The notes beneath the pieces are model-generated. The model saw only the letters and a program-made list of their open reading frames with translations. It was not told the DNA's origin and made no database searches. The translations under genes were made by a program, and so were the position numbers. From assembly GCF_000518205.1 (NCBI RefSeq), contig NZ_JADD01000003.1, positions 1 to 64,000 on the forward strand: DNA of 64,000 nucleotides, in the 5' to 3' direction. This DNA comes from Hutsoniella sourekii ATCC 700629 (GTDB lineage: Bacteria; Bacillota; Bacilli; Lactobacillales; Aerococcaceae). The stretch's first letter is position 1; each line of letters begins with the position of its first letter. Shown here one piece after another: positions 35,324-60,990 of the stretch.

Positions 35324-35486
35324 TGTGAACACCTTTCTCTAAACAATAGTAACATTATAGCATAGATGTATTAAAAAAATTCGATAAAATTCGCTCAAAT
35401 ATACAAATTCGTAATTAGAAAATAAATAGATAAAAAACTAAAATTAATATCTAATGAGAACAAAATGAACAGATTATTAAAAATAC

Positions 35487-35515
35487 TTGACATAAACCCT
35501 GATCCTTGTTATCAT
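35487..35515 (+). promoter_or_regulatory. Strong promoter for the attenuator-controlled operon
   Basis: TTGACA (35487-35492), a 17-base spacer and TATCAT (35510-35515): eleven of twelve consensus bases. Transcription should start near 35522, about 20 bases before the leader peptide. Confidence 0.85.
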
Positions 35516-35541
35516 AAATTCTATCAGAAAGGAGAATAACC

Positions 35542-35598
35542 ATGTCTCAAATTAAGTGTAAACTATCTATGTCAAACTTTTATCGCTTCTTTAGATAG
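35542..35598 (+). CDS. Leader peptide rich in Phe/Tyr near its end
   Basis: An 18-residue reading frame, MSQIKCKLSMSNFYRFFR, with a good ribosome site (AAAGGAG, seven bases before ATG). It lies right behind a strong promoter and before a terminator-type RNA fold. Four of the last six residues are Phe or Tyr (codons TTT TAT at 35578-35583, TTC TTT at 35587-35592). The stop codon's last base is the first base of RNA segment 1 of the attenuator. This is the layout of amino-acid attenuation leaders such as pheL and trpL: slow decoding of Phe or Tyr codons would hold the ribosome just short of segment 1. Peptide function beyond its translation is not expected. Confidence 0.75.
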   Translation: MSQIKCKLSMSNFYRFFR

Positions 35599-35760
35599 TG
35601 CTTGCATTCTCCAGATGCAAGCACGTAGCTGATTGCATCTAATAGGAGCCTATTTAAGTGCCTTATTAGATTATCATAAATCTAATGTAGGCCTGAGGGT
35701 GAACATGATTATTCTTATAATTGACCTACATTAGTGATTAATGTAGGTTTTTTATTTTTG
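35598..35760 (+). promoter_or_regulatory. Transcription attenuator with relay of alternative hairpins
   Basis: Seven segments can pair only with one neighbour at a time. 1:2 is 35598-35607 with 35615-35624 (10 bp). 2:3 is 35613-35620 with 35633-35640 (8 bp). 3:4 is about 35638-35646 with 35662-35670. 4:5 is 35665-35672 with 35679-35686 (8 bp). 5:6 is 35682-35691 with 35725-35734 (10 bp). 6:7 is 35724-35733 with 35739-35748 (10 bp) followed by TTTTTTATTTTT, an intrinsic terminator. Pairs 1:2, 3:4, 5:6 prevent termination; 2:3, 4:5, 6:7 give it. A ribosome at the leader stop codon covers segment 1 and favours termination. Confidence 0.8.
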
Positions 35761-35781
35761 AAAAAAGTATGGAGGGAAAAA

Positions 35782-38217
35782 GTGAAGAATAGAATTAAAG
35801 GGATTTTTCAAGCAATTGCCTTGATAGCTCTAGTGCTATCAGTGAATATGCTGAAAGTTCAAGCTGCCCAAGAAGTTACAGTTGCAGTAAGTGCTCAATC
35901 AAAGCCTTATAATTATCACAACGACAAGCAGGAGTTGACCGGTTTTGAAATTGATTTATTGAAAGAAATAGATCAACGATTAGATGCTTATCAATTTAAC
36001 TATGAAACAACGGAATTTGCCTCTTTATTTGCTGGCTTGGATGCTGGTAAATTCGATCTGATTGCCAATAATATTGGTGATAAAGAAGAACGTCGGGAAA
36101 AATATTTATTTAGTCAGTACCCCTATGTGATCACTCATAATGTCTTGATCACTAAGCCAGAATTGGGTGAGAAAGTAGATTTAACTGACTTAGCCGGTCG
36201 TTCGATGGGGATTGTGGCTGGCTCTGCTCAGTCGATTTTTATGGAGGCTTATAACAAAGCTAACCCTGATAAGGCCGTACGTCTAGATTATGTTGATACA
36301 GATGCTTCCACTATCATTCGAGGGGTTGAATCGGGTCAATATGATGCGACGATCTATTCTACCACCTACTTAAAAGATGTAGAAGATACCTATGGGATCA
36401 AACTAAAAGGACATCCGATTGCTAATGAAGATGAGATTCAGCCACCAGGTGCTTATTTCCTCTACCGTAAGGATAACCAAGAATCACTTCAACTAAGAGA
36501 TGCCATTGACCAGGTTTTAGCTGAAATGCGTGAAGATGGTAGCCTTAAAGAATTAAGCGAGAAATATTTTGGCCAAGATGATAGTCAATTATCCAAAGAG
36601 ATTATGGACTATAATGATTCACTTGCTCAAGCAGATCAATCGTCTGCTCGAAAGGTGATTGTGGGTACCAGTGGTCAAACCAAACCACTAAATTATTTCA
36701 CTGAAGATACCAACCAATTGACAGGAATTGAAGTCGATATCCTTAATGAAATTGATCGAAGATTAGATGAAATTACTATCGACTATGAAATTACAGAATT
36801 TGCTTCCTTATTTGCAGGACTCGATTCGCAAGCGTTTGATTTAGTGGCTAATAACTTAGGAGAAAATCCAGAAAGAAGAGAAAAATTTCTCTTCTCACTT
36901 TATCCCTATATTATTACTCATAATGTTGTCATTACACAAACCGGTACTCCAGAAAATATGAAAATGGAGGACTTTACAGGTAAATCATTCGGAGTTGTCC
37001 CCGCTTCTCCTCAATCCATGTTCTTAGAAAAATGGAATGAAGACCACCCTGACCAAGCCGTTGACATTCAATATGTAGACTCTGATCCATCTACAATTAT
37101 TCGAGATGTCTATAATGGTCGGTTTGATGCGACGATTTACAATACGACTTACTTAAACGATGTCCAAGATACTTTTGGAATTAAACTACAAAGTCATGCC
37201 ATTGAAAATGAGGACGCCATTCGTCCACCCGGTTCCTATTTTATCTATCGTAAAGATGATCAAGATTTACGTAACTTAATGGATCAGACTCTCGCAGAAA
37301 TGAGAGCAGATGGCACTCTAGCTGCCATTAGTGAGAAATACCTAGGGGAAGATCATACGCAGTTAACTCCTGAAATCATTGAAAAAAATGATAAAATCGA
37401 AGCAGAGCGAACGGGCCAAGAAAATTCAAGGGAATCTAGTGATCTCGTAAGTTCAGAAGCGAAGTCTTCAACTGACGGGAAATTATTTGCACCAGAAGTG
37501 ATCGGTCAAATTATGCCAACGATCTTGTCCAAATTGCCGATTACTTTACTGATGACTTTGGTGTCCGCTTTAATTGGTCTATCTCTGGGATTTATTATTG
37601 CTATCACTAAGATTCGAGGTGTGCCGGTCTTATCTCAATTATTTAACGTTTTCGTCTCCTTTATGAGAGGAACACCGCAACTGGTTCAACTATTTTTAGC
37701 TTTTTATGGTTTCCCGTTGGTTGTTAGATGGTTGAATCAACAATTTGGCTGGACCTTTGATGTTAATAATATTCCGGCTTTAACGTATGTTTTTATCGCC
37801 TTTGGTTTAAATGAAGCAGCCTATAATTCTGAAACCTTTAGAGCAGCTATCTTGTCTGTCGATCAAAGTGAAGTTGAAGCGGCTAAATCTATTGGCTTGA
37901 CCTCTAGTCAGACCATGCGCCGGATTATTTTGCCGTCAGCTTTAATTGTGGCAATTCCGAACTTAGGGAATAGTTTAATTTCATTACTAAAGGGAACATC
38001 TTTAGCTTTTACCGTTACAATTATAGATATTATGGGACAAGCGAGAATTATTGCCGGTTCTAATTTACGTTTCTTTGAAGCTTACATAGCTGTAGCCTTA
38101 ATTTATTGGATTTGTTGTATCTTGATTGAGCAGGCAGTTAAGTGGTTGGAAGGGCGATTAAATGTGGATAATCATGAACTTGAAGATATTAGAGTAGAGG
38201 AGGCTAGTCATGCTTAA
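35782..38217 (+). CDS. Amino-acid ABC transporter, two binding domains fused to permease
   Basis: An 811-residue GlnP-like fusion. A signal sequence (about residues 1-30) is followed by two similar solute-binding domains (about 33-275 and 292-530): each has EFASLFAGLD, then ERREK-[YF]-LFS and ITHNV. A Ser/Glu linker follows, then a permease of about five helices with the ATPase-docking EAA loop VEAAKSIGLTSSQTMRRI. The GTG at 35782 after GGAGGG is taken as start, because the frame's earlier start lies in the terminator stem. It overlaps the ATPase gene by 8 bases. Binding domains are of the polar amino-acid/cystine/glutamine kind. Linkage to pheA-tyrA suggests aromatic amino acids or their precursors, but the ligand is unproven. 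Confidence 0.88.
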   Translation: MKNRIKGIFQAIALIALVLSVNMLKVQAAQEVTVAVSAQSKPYNYHNDKQELTGFEIDLLKEIDQRLDAYQFNYETTEFASLFAGLDAGKFDLIANNIGDKEERREKYLFSQYPYVITHNVLITKPELGEKVDLTDLAGRSMGIVAGSAQSIFMEAYNKANPDKAVRLDYVDTDASTIIRGVESGQYDATIYSTTYLKDVEDTYGIKLKGHPIANEDEIQPPGAYFLYRKDNQESLQLRDAIDQVLAEMREDGSLKELSEKYFGQDDSQLSKEIMDYNDSLAQADQSSARKVIVGTSGQTKPLNYFTEDTNQLTGIEVDILNEIDRRLDEITIDYEITEFASLFAGLDSQAFDLVANNLGENPERREKFLFSLYPYIITHNVVITQTGTPENMKMEDFTGKSFGVVPASPQSMFLEKWNEDHPDQAVDIQYVDSDPSTIIRDVYNGRFDATIYNTTYLNDVQDTFGIKLQSHAIENEDAIRPPGSYFIYRKDDQDLRNLMDQTLAEMRADGTLAAISEKYLGEDHTQLTPEIIEKNDKIEAERTGQENSRESSDLVSSEAKSSTDGKLFAPEVIGQIMPTILSKLPITLLMTLVSALIGLSLGFIIAITKIRGVPVLSQLFNVFVSFMRGTPQLVQLFLAFYGFPLVVRWLNQQFGWTFDVNNIPALTYVFIAFGLNEAAYNSETFRAAILSVDQSEVEAAKSIGLTSSQTMRRIILPSALIVAIPNLGNSLISLLKGTSLAFTVTIIDIMGQARIIAGSNLRFFEAYIAVALIYWICCILIEQAVKWLEGRLNVDNHELEDIRVEEASHA

Positions 38218-38947
38218 GTTAAGTCAATGGTCAAAGTCATTTAAGAATAATTGTGTCTTGAATGATATTAATCTTGAAGTAGCGACCGGTCACGTATTAA
38301 CCATTATAGGAGCCAGTGGATCTGGTAAGTCAACCTTACTCCGGACCATTAATTTTCTAGAGCCAGCTGACTCTGGAATCATGCAAATTGGTGAGATCAC
38401 TAGAGACGTGAGTCAAGTAACTAATAAAGATATTCTTGCGATCCGGCGGCAGACAGCTATGGTTTTTCAAAATTATGCCTTATTTTCTAAGAAAACAGCC
38501 CTAGAAAATGTGATGGAAAGTTTGGTAATGGTCAAAAAAATTCCTAAGGCAGAAGCCCAGACTATTGCGGAGGGATACTTGGAAATGGTTGGGATGAAAG
38601 ATCGGATTCATTACTATCCAAGTAAATTATCTGGAGGGCAAAAGCAAAGGGTTGGTATCGCCCGAGCACTAGCTATCAAGCCGGAAGTTATTTTATTTGA
38701 TGAACCAACCTCGGCTCTTGATCCTGAATTGGTTGGGGGTATTCTAGACCTTATTCAAGAGATTGCCCATAATGAAACAACGATGATTATGGTTACCCAT
38801 GAAATGAATTTTGCTAAACAAGTATCAGATCAAGTTATCTTCTTGGATCAAGGAAGAATACTAGAGCAGGGAAGTCCTGACCAGATATTCGACCATCCAA
38901 GAGAAGAGAGAACTGCTCAGTTTATTCAAGGTATTACGAGCTACTAG
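38210..38947 (+). CDS. Amino-acid ABC transporter ATP-binding protein
   Basis: A 245-residue ATPase of the polar amino-acid uptake family (GlnQ/HisP type). Walker A is IGASGSGKSTLLR, the Q-loop is in MVFQNYALFSKKTALEN, the signature is LSGGQKQRVGIARAL, Walker B is VILFDEPTSALDPEL and the switch His is in MVTHEMNFA. All catalytic residues are intact. Its start overlaps the end of the binding-domain/permease gene. The pheA gene begins 13 bases after its stop, so transporter and biosynthesis genes are on one mRNA. Confidence 0.94.
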   Translation: MLKLSQWSKSFKNNCVLNDINLEVATGHVLTIIGASGSGKSTLLRTINFLEPADSGIMQIGEITRDVSQVTNKDILAIRRQTAMVFQNYALFSKKTALENVMESLVMVKKIPKAEAQTIAEGYLEMVGMKDRIHYYPSKLSGGQKQRVGIARALAIKPEVILFDEPTSALDPELVGGILDLIQEIAHNETTMIMVTHEMNFAKQVSDQVIFLDQGRILEQGSPDQIFDHPREERTAQFIQGITSY

Positions 38948-38960
38948 AAAGGAAAGACCT

Positions 38961-39857
38961 ATGCGTATTGGTTATCAAGGAATTCAAGGATCCTATAGCG
39001 AGATGACAGTCCAAGACTATCTTCAAGACCATCAAATTCTCCAGGAGAAAGCTGAGTTACGGGGTTTTTCGGCTTTCAATTTGATTACCTCAAGTCTCCT
39101 ATCTGAAGAACTTGATTTAGCTATTTTACCGGTAGAAAATTCAACCACTGGTTTGATTACCCGAACCTTGGATTTATTTCGCTATCAACCGATATGTGGG
39201 GTTCAAGTACTATACCAACCTGTGCGTCATTCTTTATGGGGATTACCTGGTAGTGAAATAAACCAGATTAGACAAGTCTATTCCCACCCAGAGGCATTGT
39301 CCCAATGCCAGCAATTCTTCCAAGATCACCCTTGGATAGAACCCATCTCTTATACTGATACTGCTGGCGCCGCCTTGATGGTATCTGAGAGTAAGAATCC
39401 GGAAATAGCAGCCCTGTCTAGTCCTCGTGCAGGTCTTTTATACCAGTTAGAAGCACTAGAAAGTGAAATTCAATCGGAGTTAACGAATACCACCAAATTC
39501 TTTGCAACCGAAAAATTACATCTCGAGCAAAAATCCTATGGGGACTACTTAAATGAGTGGCGAGACCAATCTCCAGAACGAACCCGTTTACTGTTGTATG
39601 TGGAGACACTTCACCAACCAGGGGCTTTGGCTAAGCTGCTAAATGCCTTCCAATTATTTGATTGTAATTTACAAAGCTTAGACGCCCGCCCCATTAAAGA
39701 TAAGCCTTTTAACTATGGTTTCTTTGTAGAAGTTGAAATCGGTAACTTATCAATGGATATGAATGTTTTTTGGTCAACCTTATCCTATGCGACGGCCTAT
39801 TTGCAGGTGATTGCTTGTTATGAGCCTTTAGAGATACTAATGGACTATCTAGATTAG
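38961..39857 (+). CDS. pheA: Prephenate dehydratase
   Basis: Converts prephenate to phenylpyruvate in phenylalanine synthesis. The protein is 298 residues: catalytic domain about 1-185, starting IGYQGIQGSYSEMTV and ending with the conserved NTTKFF motif (Thr-Lys-Phe, near 175). A C-terminal ACT domain follows (about 205-290) with the Phe-sensing elements HQPGALAKLL and a modified ESRP motif, here DARP. It follows the transporter ATPase and precedes tyrA. Feedback inhibition by Phe is expected for the family, but the altered ESRP motif could change it. Confidence 0.95.
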   Translation: MRIGYQGIQGSYSEMTVQDYLQDHQILQEKAELRGFSAFNLITSSLLSEELDLAILPVENSTTGLITRTLDLFRYQPICGVQVLYQPVRHSLWGLPGSEINQIRQVYSHPEALSQCQQFFQDHPWIEPISYTDTAGAALMVSESKNPEIAALSSPRAGLLYQLEALESEIQSELTNTTKFFATEKLHLEQKSYGDYLNEWRDQSPERTRLLLYVETLHQPGALAKLLNAFQLFDCNLQSLDARPIKDKPFNYGFFVEVEIGNLSMDMNVFWSTLSYATAYLQVIACYEPLEILMDYLD

Positions 39858-39866
39858 GAGTTAGAT

Positions 39867-40742
39867 ATGGATCAAATCAATATAGCAATTGTTGGCCTTG
39901 GTGTGGTTGGAGGATCCTTTGCCTTAGCCTTGGCCCAACAAGATACATATCCTGTTAATGTAATGGGGATTGATCACAATTTGGTGACACTTCAGAAGGC
40001 TCAACAAGCGAATGTGATTAGTCGGGGGGAGGTAAACAATCAAACCATCCTACAAGAGGCAGACTTAGTTATCATTACCCTATATCCATTTGACTTAGTT
40101 GACTTTATTAAGGCTAATAAGGATTATTTCAAACCTGGGGCGATTGTAACCGATGTGACCGGTGTTAAGGGAGACCTAATTCACCAAATCCTGGAATATT
40201 TGCCTGAGAGTTTAGAATTTATTCCCGGTCATCCGATGGCGGGGAAGGAGAAAAAAGGCTTTGACTATGCTAGCGCAGAAGTTTTCAAGGGGGCTAACTA
40301 TTTGTTGATGCCTCATGAGAAGAGTACTGAAGAGAATCTTAATCGGTTCATAAGCTTGCTTCAAGTCTTAGGTTTCAAGAGAATTAGTCAAGTTTCATCA
40401 AGCTTACATGATGAAATGATCGCCTATACTAGCCAATTATGCCATGTCATCTCGGTAGCCTTAGTTAATAGTGATAATCCAGAGCGGGAAACAGTTAAAT
40501 TTATTGGTGACAGTTATCGAGAACTGACACGAATTGCCAAAATTAATGATGAACTATGGACTCAGTTATTTGTCACTAACAAAGAGCAACTATTGAAGTC
40601 CATTGAAAATTTCGAAGTTGAGTTAGACTACATTAAAGATGCCCTAGTGGCAGATAAGTTTGATAATTTGCGTCAAGCCTTTCAACAATCCACTCAAAGA
40701 AGAGAGAATTTAGAAATCAATGACTTAAAAACTAAAGAATAA
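39867..40742 (+). CDS. tyrA: Prephenate dehydrogenase
   Basis: Oxidises prephenate to 4-hydroxyphenylpyruvate for tyrosine synthesis. The protein is 291 residues. The NAD site IVGLGVVGGSFALAL is at the N-terminus, DVTGVKGDL is near 92 and the catalytic His region is PGHPMAGKEKKGFDYA near 120. The helical C-terminal domain carries DEMIAYTSQLCHVISVAL. There is no C-terminal ACT domain of the B. subtilis kind. It is 9 bases after pheA and is the last gene of the attenuated operon. Confidence 0.94.
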   Translation: MDQINIAIVGLGVVGGSFALALAQQDTYPVNVMGIDHNLVTLQKAQQANVISRGEVNNQTILQEADLVIITLYPFDLVDFIKANKDYFKPGAIVTDVTGVKGDLIHQILEYLPESLEFIPGHPMAGKEKKGFDYASAEVFKGANYLLMPHEKSTEENLNRFISLLQVLGFKRISQVSSSLHDEMIAYTSQLCHVISVALVNSDNPERETVKFIGDSYRELTRIAKINDELWTQLFVTNKEQLLKSIENFEVELDYIKDALVADKFDNLRQAFQQSTQRRENLEINDLKTKE

Positions 40743-52561: not shown

Positions 52562-52934
52562 TAAGTAAACTTATTTAAGCCATGTTCTGTCAAGATTAAG
52601 TTTAGGCCAACTTAATCCGGGTAATTATCTATCTATACACGCCTGTGTATCTCTTTCTTTGGTTGAATTCCTACTGGAAAGAGTGCCCCGACCAAAGTTT
52701 GGGTTGCTCACTCGAGGGGTTTACCAACGTTCCACTCTTAGTGTTTCCACTAAGACTCGTCTCTGTGGCACTTTATGGCTTACTGAACCTTAGATGGACC
52801 TTAGGTTGTTCTGCCGCCGTTAAATGAATACCTTAGCTTATTGTTTCGCTAAGCACGAACACTACAAGCATCTCAGCTTGTGTGAGCATGGACTTTCCTC
52901 AGCATACTGCCGCAATTACCATAAGCTTACTTAC
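52562..52934 (-). ncRNA. rnpB: RNase P RNA, class B
   Basis: The catalytic RNA that trims tRNA 5' ends. Conserved blocks on the minus strand, in order: GAGGAAAGTCCATGCTC (helix P4 5' side and flank), GAGATGCTTGTAGTGTTCGT, and near the 3' end ACAGAACATGGCTT (P4 3' side). The first block is close to the B. subtilis sequence. The ends are set by pairing of the 5' segment (52921-52933) with the 3' segment (about 52563-52575), one G-U pair in 13. A terminator follows. Its place next to gpsB is common in Firmicutes. Confidence 0.95.
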
Positions 52935-60775: not shown

Positions 60776-60784
60776 AATAAAGAA

Positions 60785-60990
60785 TAATATCAATGAAGTA
60801 GCTAAGTAGTCTCAATGACAGAGAATAACCGTTTGCTGAGAGGTTATAGGAGATGAAGACACTATGGAGATGAATAAGCAAAACTTATTCCGCTATTCGG
60901 CGTTATCGATTAAGGTAGTATTTTTACTATGAAAATAGGTGGTACCACGCGACAGCGTCCTATGGCGATTTTGCCGTAGGATTTTTTATT
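60785..60990 (+). promoter_or_regulatory. T-box riboswitch upstream of hisS-aspS
   Basis: The leader contains the T-box sequence AGGTGGTACCACG (60937-60949) that reads the tRNA CCA end, followed by a terminator (TCCTATGGC at 60958-60966 with GCCGTAGGA at 60973-60981, then TTTTTT). Stem I lies upstream, with an AGTA/GAA loop-E pair (about 60803 and 60855) flanking the specifier loop. The loop reads GAAGACAC, containing GAC (Asp, 60858-60860) and the overlapping CAC (His, 60860-60862), fitting the two downstream synthetases. Uncharged tRNA would stabilise the antiterminator. Confidence 0.9.

Follow-up and report, generated by a model that had tools for sequence, protein, structure and literature searches.

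The region upstream of a transporter-pheA-tyrA operon in Hutsoniella sourekii ATCC 700629 very likely encodes a ribosome-mediated attenuator of eight RNA segments, which responds to the availability of charged tRNA-Phe and tRNA-Tyr and thereby regulates this operon. It lies in a stretch of 64,000 nucleotides (contig NZ_JADD01000003.1, positions 1 to 64,000, here called the window), and its features are all on the forward strand. The evidence comes from sequence and computation and consists of the parts of the element, their conservation and covariation, the match between control codons and downstream genes, and folding in three ribosome states. A preliminary description of the locus had proposed attenuation, induced by Phe/Tyr starvation, through mutually exclusive helices. 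That mechanism is right in kind, and recurring helices and the codon-gene match point to it, but one essential part, segment 0, had been missed. Its scope is also far wider, as the window copy is no isolated oddity and belongs to a widespread family, part of which is already in Rfam as the "sRNA" RF02863.

The locus starts with a promoter (35487..35515) that matches 11 of 12 consensus positions by motif scan only; the -35 box TTGACA (35487-35492) and the -10 box TATCAT (35510-35515) were read directly from the sequence and are separated by a 17-bp spacer with an extended -10 TG. A leader-peptide ribosome binding site, AAAGGAG (35528..35534), precedes the leader ORF (35542..35598, MSQIKCKLSMSNFYRFFR; leader peptides are given here up to the stop codon), which begins with ATG at 35542, has 18 codons with Phe/Tyr as control codons, ends in NFYRFFR and stops at TAG (35596-35598). 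Orthologous leaders are found in other genera. After an intrinsic terminator (35723-35759) comes the gene of an ABC transporter with a permease fused to two substrate-binding domains (35782..38217, GTG start at 35782), which matches NCBIfam amino-acid transporter families, with all full-length matches below the family cut-offs. It is followed by an ABC transporter ATPase (38210..38947, NCBIfam), the prephenate dehydratase pheA (38961..39857, NCBIfam 4.6e-45, below the equivalog cut-off) and the prephenate dehydrogenase tyrA (39867..40742, NCBIfam 6.1e-49, below the equivalog cut-off). The locus has the makings of a leader-peptide attenuator: an ORF with a ribosome binding site after a promoter, with translation predicted from the sequence and a test of frame and Shine-Dalgarno motif; control codons that fit the operon, Phe/Tyr codons preceding pheA-tyrA; an intrinsic terminator before the first gene with a mutually exclusive antiterminator; and, as computed by constrained folding, a fold selected by the position of the ribosome.

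From the end of the leader onward, seven segments can pair with their neighbours. Segment 1 (35598..35608) starts at the last base of the leader stop codon and forms an 11-bp stem with segment 2 (35613..35624), whose other possible partner is segment 3 (35630..35659). The 5' part of segment 3 pairs with segment 2, its middle with segment 4 (35660..35672) and its whole 3' part with segment 0, described below. Segment 4 pairs in helices 3:4 and 4:5, and segment 5 (35679..35692) in 4:5 and 5:6. Segment 6 (35723..35734), found by sequence and helix search, is at once the 3' arm of the antiterminator and the 5' arm of the terminator, which segment 7 and the U-tract complete (35738..35759, by sequence); the terminator stem covers 35723-35749 with the T-run directly after it. 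Counting stacking energies only, the helices reach -20.8 (1:2, GTGCTTGCATT/GATGCAAGCAC), -15.2 (2:3, AGATGCAAGCA/TGATTGCATCT), -13.3 (3:4, ATCTAATAGGAGC/GCCTTATTAGAT), -16.6 (4:5, GCCTTATTAGATT/AATCTAATGTAGGC), -16.5 (5:6, CTAATGTAGG/CCTACATTAG) and -18.4 (6:7, GACCTACATTAG/TTAATGTAGGTT). An unbiased best-chain search of overlapping helices recovers exactly these six, with a chain total of 100.8 compared with 46.2 (sd 9.9) in dinucleotide shuffles, a value that 0 of 400 attain; nor do six helices that are each at -10 or better occur in any of the 400. At a weak threshold (-7) the length of the chain is not unusual, six helices occurring in 54 of 300 shuffles, and because the helix count at this threshold is not above chance the energies were used instead. 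The case for a relay is carried by helix strength and conservation, not by helix count. Promoter, ribosome binding site, NFYRFFR leader, six helices and terminator are thus where the preliminary description had placed them, as is the start of segment 1.

We found the same transporter after a Phe/Tyr leader and relay in Bavariicoccus seileri, Fundicoccus ignavus, two members of the taxonomic family of H. sourekii (G018 and G011), three Atopostipes, Alloiococcus otitis, Vagococcus silagei and Streptococcus sp. X13SY08, while the homologues of the window transporter in Facklamia and G007 have no such leader. In nine of these 11 transporter-operon elements, counting the window, the number of neighbour helices is exactly six, and in those of Fundicoccus and Streptococcus exactly four. 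Segments are gained or lost in twos, so that the parity of the relay is kept. Since segment 1 is almost the same as segment 3 (GTTTGTA), recombination between the repeats would be a simple path to the loss of two segments. In the Fundicoccus ignavus copy (L063, 2331-2399) a run of eight A throws the leader ORF off the Phe/Tyr frame, which past this run ends in LYSFYR; the run may be a sequencing error, a slippage site or decay.

Segment 0 (35575..35597) comprises the Phe/Tyr codons, the Arg codon and the stop. It pairs with the part of segment 3 at 35636-35659 (AACTTTTATCGCTTCTTTAGAT with ATCTAATAGGAGCCTATTTAAGT), with hairpin 1:2 nested inside. A blind column scan of a plain MAFFT alignment (A3) gave as its longest helix the one that joins the control codons and segment 3. 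The duplex has an energy of -13.5 in the window (p = 0.014 with segment 3 shuffled and 0.0065 with segment 0 shuffled), and 0:3 is present in all 11 transporter-operon members with 13-20 bp (p <= 0.02 whichever strand is shuffled), for example with 15 of 15 pairs in Vagococcus and 16 of 16 in G018. Over 94 members, 7 of 7 outer pairs have changes on both sides, though one strand is coding. A pairing of segment 0 with segment 1 was also considered; it is strong only in the window (-12.2) and G018 (-16.7) and weak elsewhere, and was replaced by 0:3.

For the window, we folded the RNA up to segment 6 with the ribosome footprint held unpaired. Constrained folding without a ribosome gave 0:3 (11.1 expected pairs), 1:2 and 4:5 (10.7). 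Whichever of the four Phe/Tyr codons the ribosome occupied, the fold had 1:2, 3:4 (10.6-11.9) and 5:6 (9.2-10.3), with 1:2 weakened when the ribosome was on the last Phe codon, and a ribosome at the stop codon gave 2:3 (7.5) and 4:5 (12.3). Across 94 members, with RNA up to segment 4 and 3:4 scored as formed at 5 pairs or more, 3:4 formed with a stalled ribosome in 95% (codon -6), 91% (-5), 83% (-4) and 69% (-3), against 17% without ribosome and 18% with the ribosome at the stop (Wilcoxon below 1e-14). Bavariicoccus and Vagococcus are among the relatives with a weak predicted stalled state at segment 6. Equilibrium folding at full length is uninformative, the terminator always forming whatever the position of the ribosome, and the switch is blurred when the 5' UTR is included, segment 3 is shortened or segment 0 is left out; the antiterminated state would therefore rest on kinetic order. 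A terminator that wins at full length is as expected if antitermination is kinetic.

We infer translation of the leader, stalling of the ribosome and a regulatory response. Without a ribosome, 0:3 with the nested 1:2 would form and leave 4:5 and then 6:7, so that transcription would end. When stalled at a Phe or Tyr codon, the ribosome would cover segment 0 and leave segment 1 free; by sitting on the control codons it would free segment 3, so that 1:2 and 3:4 and then 5:6 could form and transcription read through. At the stop codon the ribosome would cover both 0 and 1, segment 2 would be free to take segment 3, and 4:5 and 6:7 would terminate transcription. Hairpin 1:2 would act as a range extender through which a ribosome at the stop codon reaches segment 3 over a distance of about 35-50 nt. 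The amino acid sensed would, by the codons, be Phe, Tyr or both.

The preliminary description had the relay run on segments 1-7 only. RNA without a ribosome would then read through by default, and termination would follow when a ribosome at the stop codon masks segment 1. The neighbour helices on which it was built are real and conserved, and the window does fold into 1:2, 3:4 and 5:6 when the 5' UTR and the leader up to the stop are held unpaired. That account omits 0:3, which is kept in 11 of 11 transporter-operon members and, across 94 members, shows covariation with the control codons; with 0:3 included, constrained folding predicts that the untranslated RNA terminates. We consider a relay of segments 1-7 only very unlikely.

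The eight-segment attenuator is conserved beyond the transporter operon. In the structure-free alignment A3, 93.2% of the cells are paired, compared with at most 46% in slid controls, and 24 cells have changes on both sides, compared with 8.4 in shuffles (0 of 500 reach it). For 94 distinct members the number of both-side cells is 245 compared with 51.7, reached by 0 of 500 shuffles, where the cells are not phylogenetically independent and the model to which the alignments A5 and A6 were fitted already contained 0:3, 1:2 and 4:5. Helix 1:2 is 99.8% paired over the 94 members with both-side changes at 5 of 7 pairs, and 4:5 has such changes at 6 of 6 pairs. Helix 2:3, absent from the alignment model, is 93.2% paired with 43 both-side cells (15.4 when shuffled). 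Helix 3:4, though 91.9% paired, hardly varies, which leaves covariation silent on it; of the compensatory changes sought in the six helices, those in the others recur in other genera. Complementarity 5:6 is significant in the window (p = 0.005) and, at the p <= 0.05 level, in 78 of the 91 relatives; 91 of 95 have a hairpin resembling a terminator no more than 100 nt from segment 5.

Such conservation of the scaffold could also suit a riboswitch. In S. agalactiae, premature-termination elements with short and long transcripts in RNA-seq were described before the paralogous ABC transporters gbs2033 and gbs1262, one of them also before aroFBC-tyrA of E. faecium, and were proposed as riboswitches that bind aromatic amino acids or their precursors (PMC4448216); for gbs2033/gbs1262 that report mentions no peptide. 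Judging by gene context, the gbs2033 element very probably belongs to the present family. A riboswitch in which the ORF is incidental is nevertheless highly improbable, since an ATG with a Shine-Dalgarno match of at least 4 of 6 is found in the control-codon frame in 91% of 93 relatives, as opposed to 0% and 8% in the other frames. The scaffold also precedes Ile, Leu/Ile/Val and Trp genes, where the control codons change together with their pairing partners, and the conserved bases are those of the alternative helices.

The leaders of other genera end in, among others, FYFYFYR, FYYFAYYR, YYFSYFR and YYYAFYR. The Arg-stop end and the Ser of FSYFR are widely conserved, which might suggest a nascent arrest peptide whose conserved SYFR-stop end senses the free amino acid instead of slow decoding. 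We regard this as barely plausible: the AGATA/TATCT pairing in 0:3 accounts for the conserved Arg-stop bases, the Ile and Trp versions change residues and keep the frame, and the leaders of three Atopostipes and Alloiococcus end in RYSL or RYCL.

The distribution of this element was traced with two covariance models, R1 built from A3 and R3 from 70 relatives with the window left out (E-values from a short calibration). R3 finds the window copy at 35581-35692 with 44.1 bits (E 1.2e-6 in 64 kb), the runner-up site having 14.9 bits. R1 matched 246 of 395 genomes of Lactobacillales, spread over 59 of 80 genera, and 62 of 76 genomes in the taxonomic family of H. sourekii at E 0.1, but only 2 of about 137 other Bacilli; R3 matched 0 of 198 other Firmicutes genomes. 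By these sequence matches the family is Lactobacillales-centred. A pheA-only query against the genome contigs gave no match, and a DNA search of plasmids no match spanning most of the element.

The genome of H. sourekii has five copies of the element. Besides the window copy, C12 (MKTITLVNQMVFFSSNFR), C32 (MINSILLPLSSFYYGYFR) and C6 (MYQEIVLNRIANWQSWHR) precede trpX-like transporters, and C11 (MFSSSRLSEAIIISIIIR) a livJ-type branched-chain transporter. Elsewhere in the family, Phe/Tyr leaders stand before aroE, aroF, aroC and pheA, Ile leaders before ilvA and ilvE (the latter called from the sequence of a 70-residue piece without a Pfam match), Leu/Ile/Val leaders (NLLISVIR, NNLLLISVIR) before ilvB, and Trp leaders (NRWQGWHR, IWQSWHR) before trpX-like genes. 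Control codons and genes match in 23 of 23 aromatic cases (Phe/Tyr) and 13 of 14 branched-chain cases (Ile/Leu/Val; Fisher 4e-9); the lone exception (L135) is a frame slip of the script, the actual leader being MNQRTQLLLNIIISIIR. The leader codons do stay Phe/Tyr wherever aromatic genes follow, as the preliminary description would have it. Three further relatives have other genes next to them. The Phe-type leader AVFFNSNFR in G018 (L174) is followed by a gene resembling D-lactate dehydrogenase, whose product may be an aromatic 2-hydroxyacid dehydrogenase; in Fundicoccus (L180, G016:C11) the leader MLLNLSYQVVIINRIYIR precedes an oligopeptide-binding protein gene; and a weaker relative outside Lactobacillales (L232, G518) has a leader ending in NRYYYFGWFS before a transketolase-like gene.

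Two relatives score above the gathering score of RF02863 (61 bits), L101 with 86.7 and L104 with 67.3 bits, and are thus of the same family. The window copy has no match to RF02863 up to E 10 and Rfam gives chance hits only; it is a divergent relative and not an RF02863 member. RF02863 ("Enterococcus sRNA 2410") is listed as the gene of an sRNA, with neither a leader peptide nor a mechanism given, and derives from E. faecium sRNA_2410, a 195-nt transcript in vivo with two forms on Northern blots (PMC5593968). That the element is the gene of a trans-acting small RNA, as this classification has it, is scarcely credible: the short RNA of E. faecium agrees with it (PMC5593968), and a terminated leader could also act in trans, but the element lies directly before same-strand amino-acid genes and its ORF is codon-matched. 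In the literature searched, which left most subscription journals outside, we found no description of the family as leader-peptide attenuators, and peptide strings such as FYFSYFR did not occur in it.

Among the closest known systems is the his leader of E. coli and Salmonella, in which AB/CD/EF form against BC/DE (PMC10989985). Neither four segments as the general plan of known attenuators nor the novelty of an extended relay, both put forward in the preliminary description, holds in view of this leader. As in the window, its control codons lie in the first segment of an extended relay with the terminator last (PMC10989985), and termination is predicted without translation. The window does not fit a his-type six-segment attenuator with neighbour-only pairing, as it has eight segments and 0:3 encloses 1:2; this topology (0:3, 3:4, 4:5, 5:6, 6:7) is shared only by the short elements of Fundicoccus ignavus and Streptococcus sp. 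X13SY08. In the window and most relatives, unlike his, segments 1 and 2 are inserted inside 0:3 and also compete for segment 3. The amino acids concerned also differ from that of the his leader, and no sequence relation was seen.

E. coli pheL and trpL likewise have a codon-specific leader peptide and a fold chosen by ribosome position, but use four segments compared with eight in the window, whose scaffold is common to several amino-acid regulons. The host group is not new either, as leader-peptide attenuation in Firmicutes is known for Listeria ilv (PMC5864092), Staphylococcus ilv (PMC5794164) and Bacillus hisS/hisZ (PMC2965389). The Listeria Rli60 and Staphylococcus ilv leaders are also ribosome-mediated (PMC5864092, PMC5794164), but concern branched-chain amino acids only; Rli60 is drawn with four segments, and both are likened here by description only. 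T-boxes resemble the family in serving the same genes and in being modular in the amino acid, S. suis trpX having a Trp T-box (PMC9382623), but they read tRNA directly and have no leader ORF. The T-box covariance model has no match at 35450-35800. A T-box leader (Rfam 103.3 bits) is present at 60784-60965, directly before hisS-aspS, so that this genome would use T-boxes and leader-peptide attenuators side by side. The window also contains a bacterial class B RNase P RNA (52571-52927, minus strand, Rfam 304.3 bits).

Two side features of the window copy were noted as well. A linker stretch between segments 5 and 6 (35703..35717) is weakly complementary to the leader ribosome binding site and start region (35528-35546; window p = 0.055-0.07). 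Members that show it include L080, L063 (the Fundicoccus ignavus copy) and L085, and it reaches significance in Vagococcus, in Fundicoccus, in the Streptococcus sp. and in G018; with 10 of 80 relatives at p <= 0.05 and 4 expected, it is a tendency and we rejected it as a general feature of the family. Where present, such pairing could shut off further initiation at the leader. At 35624-35635, 10 nt after hairpin 1:2, the window copy fits the elemental pause pattern G-10 Y-1 G+1; at such a site RNA polymerase could wait until the ribosome catches up.

On balance, we favour the view that Lactobacillales have an order-centred modular attenuator of their own, in which the codons and their segment 3 partners are re-coded for Phe/Tyr, Ile, Leu/Ile/Val or Trp. 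It would span several regulons like T-boxes, but via the ribosome, and thanks to the nested range extender and long relay even a ribosome that is slow or arrives late would still decide on a terminator some 150 nt further on, in bacteria whose transcription and translation may be only loosely coupled. For part of a family now classed as a small RNA gene, and by gene context probably also as a hypothetical riboswitch for aromatic amino acids, this gives a testable mechanism and a list of target genes. As the control codons name the amino acid, the substrate class becomes predictable for many unassigned trpX-like transporters of Streptococcus, Enterococcus, Carnobacteriaceae and Aerococcaceae. 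In Gram-positives, where this role is commonly ascribed to T-boxes, leader-peptide attenuation would be a modular system that can be re-coded, and the family offers a test of ribosome-mediated attenuation where transcription may outrun translation.
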